Source of the DNA: Macrocystis pyrifera
Lineage: Eukaryota; Sar; Phaeophyceae; Laminariales; Laminariaceae
Length of the DNA stretch: 64,000 nt
Direction of reading: 5' to 3'
Assembly: GCA_031763025.1 (NCBI GenBank)
Contig: JASSKH010000007.1
Coordinates: forward strand, 4,145,930 to 4,209,929
Numbering within the stretch: position 1 is the stretch's first letter; each line of letters begins with the position of its first letter. This document shows positions 938 to 3,900 of this stretch, in pieces. Below the pieces are notes generated by a model that had not been told where the DNA came from, searched no databases, and saw only the letters and a list, made by a program, of their open reading frames with translations. A program made the translations under genes and the position numbers.

Positions 938-3900
938 CTAGGCTTGACCGACAGTCAAAGGACACCACACCACACACGCACGCATGCAAACAGAGCGCGC
1001 GAGAGGGCAACAAACAGGCGGCGCCATAGAGGAGAGGAGGAGGAGGCAAGAACAAAGGCTTTAGACGCAAAGCCGACCAACGTTCGCGCAGAGCGCGGGC
1101 GAGAGGGCAGCAGCGCGGAACCATGGAGTCGAGGAGTCACAAAACATACGCTTCTAAGGTGATACTTCGATATGCACTTTGTCTTTGGTTATGCTTGGGG
1201 CCGCAAGATGTAACCAGCTGCTCGGTATCGATGTTTAACACCTTGGGATAACATAAATGTGGCCTATTGCGATACGTGTTTGTATGAGGGAGGCGGGCAG
1301 TCCAACGGATGACAAGACGTGCACATGGCCGCGCTCACTTCTTCTCGGTGGTACAAATCTCGAAATCGCTAAACAACCGTGAACTACCTCCTAAATTTCC
1401 CGCCCCCGGCGGGATTCACTTCGGTCCCCCCCCCCCCCCCCCCGCTTATATCGTATCACGTAGTGTTCAAGGTACGGCACCCAAGAGGCAGTTACATAGT
1501 ACTCCCATTGCTGTCTCTGGAAGTGGCCACACCGGAAATTAAACTAACTCATTGAGGCTTTCATCCATATGCAAGTCCGGCTCACAAGCGGTTCTTAGTA
1601 GGATGCAGCTCACCCTTCATGCGACTCGCCGGACACCTCACGGCGCTTGCTTCGCGCTTGGTGCAAGCAATGTCTGCCTGGTCGGTGAAAACCCGACATG
1701 CTCCGTCCCGGCATTGTAGGGATGCGAGGGTCTATGGTCATACAACTACGGCCATGCATGAGATCGAGTACATCTCTCCTATCGAGTACACCCCCCCCCC
1801 CTTATATCAGAGTGCTGAACTATATGTTTTTTCTGCTTGTTTCGTCCGAATCTCCCTTCCGCTACGCGCGTATACAGAACTATACCACCACATAGAGAGC
1901 TACTTCAATCCAATGTACACAGCAACAAAAACGCCTCGCTATGGCACTTACAAAAAGTTCGCTGCTGACAACTCCCTTACCGCGCTATAAAGAGGTACGG
2001 GGCCCACAATCTACCGGCTTCCGCTGTCTCCGAAATCAAGAACAATAAAACCCAACGAGAGAGCACGCTCCGGACGTCGCGATTGTACAGCAGCACGCAG
2101 CACAGCACCACAGGTCTTCGGACAAGGGGGGGGGCGTGGATGGGGGGGGTCTCCCCTGGGATACTGCAGCGCAAGGAAAAAGCAAAACAATCAACAACTC
2201 CAACCCCTCCGTTTCGGCGGGACAAAAAAAAACGAATAGGAGGGACAAAAAAAACGAACAGGGGGAGAAGGGATGAGGGGGGGGTGGGGGAAGGGGTCGC
2301 ACCTGTCCAAAAATAAGCGGAACTTCCGCTGCACCTCGCTTTCCTTCCCGTGGTGCTCGGTCGCCGAGTCTCCGCTGAAGAACGGGTTTCCCTCGACGAG
2401 GCTTGAACGTGCCTGGGGTCAGGGGAGCAAAGAAGATGTGCGTGCGGCGCGCCTTGGGGGTCACCGATTCTCTTCCGCCTGGAGCTATCAAGCAACAAAG
2501 AGTGGCTCCATGCTAAGCTTCGTTGTTTTCACGAGGTAGATTTATTTTCAGTGTCCCGCAAAGCATCACAAGGACATCGCCGTGATGACGTCTGACCAGC
2601 GTCGATATTTTCGGTGCGGAATGTCAGGAGTCGACCAGGAAACGCCCACACAATCATACAGCTTTCGTTTTTCGCGATGGCCATTACTTTTGCATGCCCT
2701 TGTGCCCGGCCACTTCGTCTTGGGCGGTGTTTTTGTGAGAAACGTGTTTGGCCAGATGCGAGTGTAAGCAATCCGCAAAAGAGTACGACAAAAAACCAGG
2801 GCTCGCTGCTCTGCTCTGTTCACCGCAACAACTACCGCTGTTGATATCAAGCATCTAGTCCCAGGTCTAAAAGAAACACAGCACGACCGTCGACGTGTTG
2901 ACTGAAGGTTTTCCACCCCTCGCCAGCAACGTTTTACAGCGCCATTGCTGGCAGAAAAAAAAAAAACACCTACGTACATACTTCCCCCTTGAAAAAACAA
3001 AGACGTTGGTTTACGGGCTTTTTTTTCCAAATCGGACGCAGCAGTTAATATTTTTTAATAAGCTCAATATTACGTGATTTGTGTTTTTCAACAACGAACG
3101 CAGCAGTGGTAGTTTTTAGAAGGAAAAAAAAAAAAGAAAAAAACTGTCTTAAGCCTTTGAGGTCGAGAAATTTCGTCGCAGTTTGCGCGCACGATTGTTT
3201 TTTACTCGTGCACGCACAACCACCCCACCTCCCACCGGCCACCTTGTTGAGAAGCCCCTCGACGGTGGTGTACATGCTGCCGAGCGTTCCCATCTCCATG
3301 ACCAGCTCAAGCTGCGGCAGCTCCAGCACGGCGGTGTCGGACTTGAGCACGTCTCGTCGGAAGTCCTCCTTCGACGTAGCGTAAAGCGTGTGCACCGTTC
3401 CTTTGGGAGGGATTGCACCGCCCCCCTTGACCTGCGCGTTAACAAAAAAAAAAACAGCGGTCGCGCGCGGTTACCGCCCACATTAGACGTTATGGAGATG
3501 CGTGCGTGCTACGTAAGAACGTACGCAGCACTTTTTTTTTCCTTTATGAGGCAACATTTCCGGCTGACGGGGGGGGGGCTACTTGACCGTTTTAGAACTG
3601 CCGTTCCGTTTTGGGGACAACCCACTCTAACTCTGAGTACTTTGTCCGCCGAAACGGGACTCCCTGGTCCTGAAAAGGGTCGACCCAATATCGTCGGATT
3701 TGACCATCTGTAACTGCGGTACTTTACAGATCTTTTTTTTTTTTTTTTTTTTTTTTTTTTTACTTTGTCCTCCGGCGGATTGGTAAAAAGAAAGCTTAAG
3801 CTCACCACACTTCCACGTTCCAATTTCGTGTCGTGTGTCAATTTAGCCCATAGACAGATGTTTTCGTGATATAGACTCAATCATGTATATACCTCGTAAG

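Follow-up and report, generated by a model that had tools for sequence, protein, structure and literature searches.

In the brown alga Ectocarpus, the excerpted text of PMC12477816 describes RTEX-N1_Ec32, a non-autonomous element of about 600 bp with more than 6000 copies, a 5' part of unknown origin and a 3' end that matches an autonomous LINE (RTEX-1/RTEX-2_Ec32); that excerpt mentions neither a poly(C) tail nor a C-tract target. The pair of elements that we describe here from the giant kelp Macrocystis pyrifera is similar in its LINE-matching 3' end and differs, in a comparison made by description only, in showing both of these features. Stringent-type pairs, such as the eel LINE UnaL2 and its SINE or L1-1_CR and SINEX-3_CR of Chlamydomonas, likewise share the LINE 3' end, with a simple-repeat tail and presumed shared recognition; their tails, as given in the excerpts of PMC3747384, are poly(A), TAA or TGTAA repeats, whereas those of the kelp pair are pure C, and the same excerpts ascribe poly(A) recognition to mammalian L1 and Alu. 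Unlike in the stringent-type pairs, the end shared by the kelp elements is coding sequence in the LINE.

The homopolymer tails of L1 and Alu pair with the target, the A tails of L1 doing so with the target primer in target-primed reverse transcription, and their duplications begin with the tail base. The kelp pair resembles them in its homopolymer tail, homopolymer-containing target and tail-base-initial duplications, and departs from them in using C rather than A, in a shared 3' sequence that extends beyond the homopolymer, in its C-tract neighbourhood and in its oriented chains. Non-LTR retrotransposons targeted to simple repeats are said to be the subject of work by Kojima and Fujiwara from 2004. 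An insertion preference for a simple repeat is also seen in Togen, a non-LTR retrotransposon found at (TG)n, and the simple-repeat-targeted families in the excerpts of PMC4640811 carry a restriction-like endonuclease, whereas the kelp LINE has a candidate endonuclease that may be of this or of the APE type. In kelp, unlike in Togen-type elements, the target is a C homopolymer and is used by a non-autonomous family too. Neither the literature matches listed, drawn from sources other than Repbase, supplements and subscription journals, nor the excerpts showed any sign of a retroposon with a poly(C) tail or a poly(C) target. The term 'poly-C tract' reportedly occurs in one human paper on mitochondrial insertions (PMC9630118), and 'poly c' in one unrelated human paper (PMC2315647). 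A LINE with a short partner is thus a known kind of system, and poly(C) as both tail and target is new as far as the literature matches listed go. We propose, with considerable confidence, that the kelp pair comprises a LINE and a short LINE-dependent retroposon which have a common 3' end and poly(C) tail and insert by target-primed reverse transcription into C tracts.

A short retroposon ending in a C tract

The window is a stretch of 64,000 nucleotides of contig JASSKH010000007.1 (positions 4145930-4209929) with a GC content of 50.4% (50.37% is given for the giant kelp genome in the excerpts of PMC10498591). The first-pass annotation had described in it two copies of about 350 bp, both ending in GAGTACA and a C tract. 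Both are present (1450-1785 and 53699-54221); they are 95.7-95.8% identical across 336-352 nt and terminate in GAGTAC(A) followed by a C tract. The 350-bp unit stands as a sequence but not as the full length, since 23 of 30 fetched loci have in common about 200 nt more on the 5' side. This 5' part runs from an ATATAT start through GGGTTGGGTTGG..GGTACC, a T tract and GGCGG..GGGAATTGATC to GTATCACG, and because of it the second copy, real but placed at 53893-54257, begins near 53699. The other seven loci break off earlier and are 5'-truncated. Among them is the 1453 copy, which is cut off just before GTATCACG, flank and element overlapping there by 3 nt (ATC), and which is a truncated copy of a non-autonomous retroposon of about 0.55 kb plus tail. 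The exact 8-bp repeat reported around it was found (Table 1), and the truncated copies reported elsewhere are real (111-193, 8696-8812, 8830-8919 and 56651-56844, all on the minus strand, 53579-53684, and a chain at 29403-30079). Besides the extra 5' part and the truncation of the 1453 copy, that description had omitted the LINE partner and the target preference.

Table 1. Positions in the window of the short retroposon, its probable LINE partner, the associated C tracts and an inverted-repeat element.
Feature	Position	Strand	Remark
Truncated short retroposon	111..193	-	G27 (92-118, + strand) as tail
Older truncated short retroposon	200..254	-	immediately precedes 111-193 copy; tail 199-207
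C18 tract, insertion target upstream of truncated copy	1426..1443	+	just before left repeat
Left target-site duplication CTTATATC	1445..1452	+	ATC also fits element at truncation point
5'-truncated short retroposon, two-GAGTAC 3' end	1453..1790	+	
C11 tail of 1453 copy	1791..1801	+	
Right target-site duplication CTTATATC	1801..1808	+	one C common with tail
LINE 3' end	6603..6685	-	tail 6607-6617
Old LINE fragment	7301..7461	-	directly behind C32 tract (7463-7494)
Truncated short retroposon	8696..8812	-	directly behind tail of 8830-8919 copy
Truncated short retroposon	8830..8919	-	tail 8812-8822
C tracts, then same-strand chain of truncated copies	29374..30087	+	
C tracts ending three copies of this chain	29730-29740, 29966-29978, 30079-30087	+	
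Very short LINE copy	40428..40505	-	behind C11 tract (40519-40529); imperfect 17-nt duplication
C9 target tract at 5' end of LINE copy	52008..52016	+	
5'-truncated broken LINE with RT part, C-terminal region and end ...AACGAGTAC	52017..53554	+	
Inverted-repeat element interrupting this LINE	~52581-52691		
C tail of LINE copy	53555..53562	+	
Truncated short retroposon, single-GAGTAC 3' end	53579..53684	+	tail 53677-53695; shortly after LINE tail
Full-length short retroposon: 5' arm, T tract 53790-53812, body	53699..54224	+	
C33 tail of full-length copy	54225..54257	+	
Truncated short retroposon	56651..56844	-	tail 56638-56645
Further short-retroposon piece	56846-56891	-	beside 56651-56844
61-bp LINE copy	56957..57017	-	between C31 target tract (57017-57047) and C54 tail (56902-56955)
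Inverted-repeat copies	52581-52689, 37951-38059, 11854-11965, 33566-33689, 57856-57958, 7620-7728		
Inverted-repeat copies, continued	11182-11295, 7078-7188, 49642-49751, 39967-40076, 55645-55757		

One search of the genome (537,376,219 bases in 223 contigs) with a 348-bp query gave at least 40 near-complete matches at 97-100% identity, the window copy first; the number is a lower bound, as only the best of 3803 first-look candidates were scored, and four short matches were also among the matches listed. The near-complete matches rule out a chance repeat. Thirty of them were taken with their flanks, and over their first 325 nt the mean pairwise identity is 98.6% (96.0-99.7). As these loci were picked for their similarity to the query, the figure demonstrates a young set of copies and not how old the family is; the family may be active at present.

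The ends of the copies are very unequal. Among 66 pieces of at least 60 bp from the window and loci L004-L033 (L004 repeats two window copies, which are counted twice), 63 reach the 3' end region, at or beyond position 490 of 532, and the 5' starts are scattered from 1 to 466. C ends are present at 60 of the 63 short copies, on both strands, and the tails measure 6 to 69 C (median 12, n=58; the minimum is set by the search itself). This spread is compatible with slippage, which may underlie the changes in tail length. The 3' end occurs in two forms, with GAGTAC once or with an additional ATCTCTCCTATCGAGTACA. The earlier reading, retroposition with a poly(C) 3' end, had been offered with target duplications, 5' truncation and tail-length spread as checks; it is borne out by the constant 3' end, the ragged 5' ends and the variable tails, and by the duplications and unrelated flanks described below. 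RNAalifold folds the shared 3' end into a hairpin with a 6-pair stem in which one pair has a double-sided change, too little to claim a conserved structure.

The internal T tract of the full-length element (53790-53812, and at the same place in the full-length copies of L005-L033) differs greatly in length between copies, and in some of them it is interrupted by TTTG or rich in A. Such a tract would be expected to end transcription by pol III. Short, non-autonomous and homologous to a LINE at its 3' end, the element has the general features of a SINE. ARAGORN found no tRNA in it and Rfam gave no match of substance to 5S, 7SL or any other family; the lack of resemblance noted in the first pass holds as far as tested, and an origin from tRNA, 5S or 7SL is unsupported by these searches. 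As these searches gave no pol III-type head, we do not file it as a strict SINE, a reservation similar to that of the Ectocarpus authors for RTEX-N1_Ec32 (PMC12477816, in excerpt). Its LINE-shared 3' end, 5' truncation, target duplications and dispersed copies are those of a LINE-dependent non-autonomous retroposon.

Outside the alga, the 348-bp query had no match in phages, and an exact 26-mer of the element had none in viral contigs and matches in three contigs of bacterial metagenome-assembled genomes (MAGs), which are probably algal contamination. In one contig binned as Akkermansiaceae (L001:1-190 and beyond), a bacterial-looking coding stretch is joined to the element's tail region via C23, perhaps an assembly chimera at the homopolymer; in another MAG contig (L003:3100-3300) the element's GACGTGCTCCATCCGACCC-like stretch stands in tandem about six times.

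The probable LINE partner

Around the short copies we found another family that likewise ends in GAGTAC-C(n), in the window at 53400-53560, 56957-57017, 40428-40505, 7301-7461 and 6603-6685, which continues upstream into reverse transcriptase (RT) coding sequence in the window copy at 52017-53554 and in L007/L034, L012, L029/L035 and L036. The last 70 nt or so of this LINE match the end of the short element: consensus 3' ends, made by eye, align with a score of 51, where the best of 20,000 dinucleotide shuffles reached 29. The RT domain PF00078 (RVT_1) was recognised in two L034 pieces at 31.0 and 29.7 (curated cutoff 29.6), with the L036 piece just below (28.1), and PDB sequence searches matched one RT piece to an R2 protein but yielded no useful match for either the second RT piece or the endonuclease piece. 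The endonuclease-like pieces of L035 and L036 gave weak Exo_endo_phos Pfam hits below cutoff, and the motifs GSWNVCG, YAPR, GDFNSRI and TDHRLI, read by eye in the LINE, are those we take to be endonuclease-like. Endonuclease-like, linker, RT, C-terminal and 3'-end parts stand in one run with an internal gap in L036:506-3602, which stands behind some 200 C interspersed with a few A and terminates in GAGTAC, then C8, a T and a long C tract. All five longer copies examined (L034, L035/L029, L036, L012 and the window copy) are interrupted by stops or frame breaks, and no active source was seen among them.

The reading frame of the LINE extends almost to its tail. In 17 rows that reach the LINE 3' end (L007 was dropped as identical to L034), a shared C-terminal frame (SRKGCVVNGQMTKASNK-like) up to a TGA inside AATGAGTAC is clear in eight and partial in two (L022, L025); L034 and the window copy keep the frame with this stop codon changed, the frame is shifted or different in L012, L017, L023(-) and L043, and the L024 row is a short-element end. 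The stop lies three to five nt before the C run, so that the LINE would have almost no 3' UTR, and as the shared end is the end of the LINE reading frame, the tail region of the short element would derive from coding sequence. With 5' truncation, target duplications and a simple-repeat 3' tail, and with an RT domain that passes its cutoff narrowly, the sequence supports classification of the longer element as a LINE, and probably as the partner of the short retroposon. The near-absent 3' UTR and brown-algal precedent in the excerpts of PMC12477816 and PMC4421812 suggest the RTE / RTE-X clade.

Other repeats share the window. An inverted-repeat element of about 110 bp (TATTACGGGGGTCC...GGACCCCCGTAATA), probably a MITE, has eleven copies, one of them interrupting the LINE, and two of the inverted-repeat places are weak Rfam MIR9555 calls. 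On the minus strand, 23189-28543 holds long ORFs with, by eye, the look of a Ty1/copia-type retrotransposon and CAG/CTG-rich (poly-Q) stretches.

C tracts as tails and probable targets

In the 40 nt upstream, 48 of 63 short rows and 10 of 14 LINE rows have a run of at least six C, and one of these 77 has a run of at least six G, a set that includes the first eight of sixteen stretches taken at preset coordinates and requires at least five C at the 3' end and enough flank. In a smaller set, 43 of 57 usable short copies (of 63) had the C run and one the G run; in random 40-mers the background for the C run is 3.1% (window) and 3.9% (locus flanks). Near-full copies have the upstream run in 24 of 26 cases and truncated copies in 19 of 31. 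The four LINE rows that miss it (L007, L012, L029 and window 52724) all start at position 2279, an internal BLAST break at the gap of the L036 reference, and so are not true 5' ends; the true 5' starts of three of them, located separately, follow runs of C21 (L007/L034), C6 (L029/L035) and C9 (window copy). Insertion is thus non-random, at one simple repeat and in one orientation, with 15 of the 63 short rows, and 12 of the 31 truncated copies, as exceptions.

The target duplications typically have the form of C-run plus stub, element, C tail plus the same stub, as in the window (CTTATATC), L005 (ATTCTGTACCC), L011 (AGACACG), L017 (TACT), L019 (TCTCTC), L022 (GTCTAT), L032 (GCTTAT) and L015 (AATAGTCG, four nt of which are also element sequence). 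Stub matches of at least 6 nt directly after the C tract occur in 10 of 77 rows, against a mean of 1.6 and a maximum of 6 in 1000 permutations of the downstream flanks; three of the ten are doubtful, namely L030 (C alone) and two L023 rows (a chain, with the stub also in the element). An earlier, narrower test gave 5 of 55 copies against a permuted mean of 0.84 and maximum of 4. The other 67 rows have no duplication of 6 nt or more beyond the C run; cuts that both lie within the tract would have this outcome, though it is no proof of them. The LINE copy across L035 and L029 has CCCCCCTTGGCAGT on both sides (about 5 nt also fit the LINE), and the LINE scrap at 40428-40505 stands between CCCTCCCCTGCTTAGTG and CCCTCCCCTGATAAGTG, which agree at 15 of 17 positions and start with C.

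Copies also stand head to tail. Among 103 non-overlapping pieces there are 35 neighbour pairs within 120 nt on the same strand (23 short-short, 8 LINE-short, 4 short-LINE) and none on the opposite strand at the 5' side; one piece may be counted in several pairs, and the presence of a copy was the reason for fetching most of this DNA. Such strict orientation is predicted by a target rule directed by the C strand and not by random insertion.

The strongest competing account is ordinary LINE-driven retroposition without target preference, in which the 5' C tracts are neighbours or the element's own 5' end and the tails arise by slippage. In the full-length copies of L005, L011 and L019 a second C tract does lie between the duplication and the ATATAT start and may be element sequence, and many upstream tracts are the tails of other copies, as the neighbour pairs attest. 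Truncated copies, however, cannot carry the element's 5' end and yet most follow a C run, the C-run duplications at window 1426-1452 and L015 have no other copy directly upstream, and opposite-strand neighbours are absent; we consider this account improbable. Spread at the DNA level, by tandem or segmental duplication or C-tract recombination with no RNA step, is less probable again. The chains split by C tracts (29374-30087, 8651-8919) could come from unequal exchange, and some of their members could be recombination products, but the flanks of the 30 loci are unrelated save for four matches of more than 400 bp, three of them between LINE copies, which rules out tandem or segmental duplication for the dispersed copies; the ragged 5' and fixed 3' ends, the duplications and an RT-coding partner with the same end also speak against it.

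We give hardly any credence to the idea that the C tracts are artefacts of assembly or library, or non-templated additions, and not a genomic tail. Tracts as long as 97 (window) or about 200 (L036) are difficult to sequence, which makes their exact lengths doubtful, and the L001 contig joins bacterial-looking and element DNA via its C run; against this, C ends recur at nearly all copies on both strands, and C11 stands at the element end in the separately assembled record L002. Reverse transcriptases are able to extend a cDNA with C that has no template, but a reading of the poly(C) end as a poly(G) 5' end, with G added opposite the cap in reverse transcription, has practically no chance. It is ruled out by the LINE, in which the C tract comes after the RT coding region and on its strand, and it is the opposite end that truncation takes away.

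The first-pass annotation had proposed the family as a likely source of the many long G/C tracts. In the window, 21 of 49 C/G tracts of at least 8 touch a copy on the same strand and none on the opposite strand, where random placement gave a mean of 0.56 and a maximum of 4 in 2000 trials; 0 of 59 A/T tracts touch a copy, and by eye three more C/G tracts (6607, 8651, 44609) follow GAGTA-type ends. In the sixteen preset stretches at round coordinates (96 kb), 17 of 50 such tracts touch a copy on the same strand and none on the opposite strand, with a random mean of 0.29 and maximum of 4 in 1000. The association is thereby supported, but not a one-way cause: a C tract is a target as well as a tail, so that cause runs both ways, and most tracts stand clear of any copy (28 in the window and 33 in the preset stretches are unexplained by the short and LINE families in these scans). 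Tracts at 58971-59082, 34121-34147, 54665-54687 and 3-32 (97+14, 27, 23 and 30) have no adjacent copy of either family, and the sequences that precede them, among them CACTGAG, ATGCTA and TATCTCT, could belong to the ends of further families that behave in this way. The preset stretches hold about seven short copies (one weak) and five or six LINE pieces, roughly one of each family per 14-19 kb, which would correspond to tens of thousands of each genome-wide, with wide error.

A proposed priming rule and its consequences

In the insertion into C tracts that we favour, the LINE proteins would presumably recognise the shared end of about 70 nt and so mobilise the short element in trans. A nick on the G strand of an existing C tract, in or at the tract, would expose a G-ended primer with which the RNA's C tail could pair; reverse transcription would start there and often stop early, giving 5' truncation, and a top-strand cut a few nt past the C tract would give a duplication of C-run plus stub. 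The new copy would then lie between two C tracts in fixed orientation, its fresh C tract the next target, leading to head-to-tail nesting. The C tail itself may be transcribed from the C tract flanking the source copy, needing no new enzyme, or be added afterwards. Whether poly(C) serves simultaneously as the tail, the partner in primer pairing and the target, with the oriented tracts driving runaway C/G homopolymers and head-to-tail chains, we judge to be about evenly balanced.

Because orientation, target and tail can all be read from sequence, the priming rule is testable. Young insertions could be used as markers of kelp populations, and long C/G tracts are of practical concern as they hinder assembly and may form quadruplexes. 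Where retroposition both targets and produces a homopolymer, one kind of simple repeat would be amplified by a simple positive feedback, which may account for a sizeable share of the long C/G tracts in the kelp genome.
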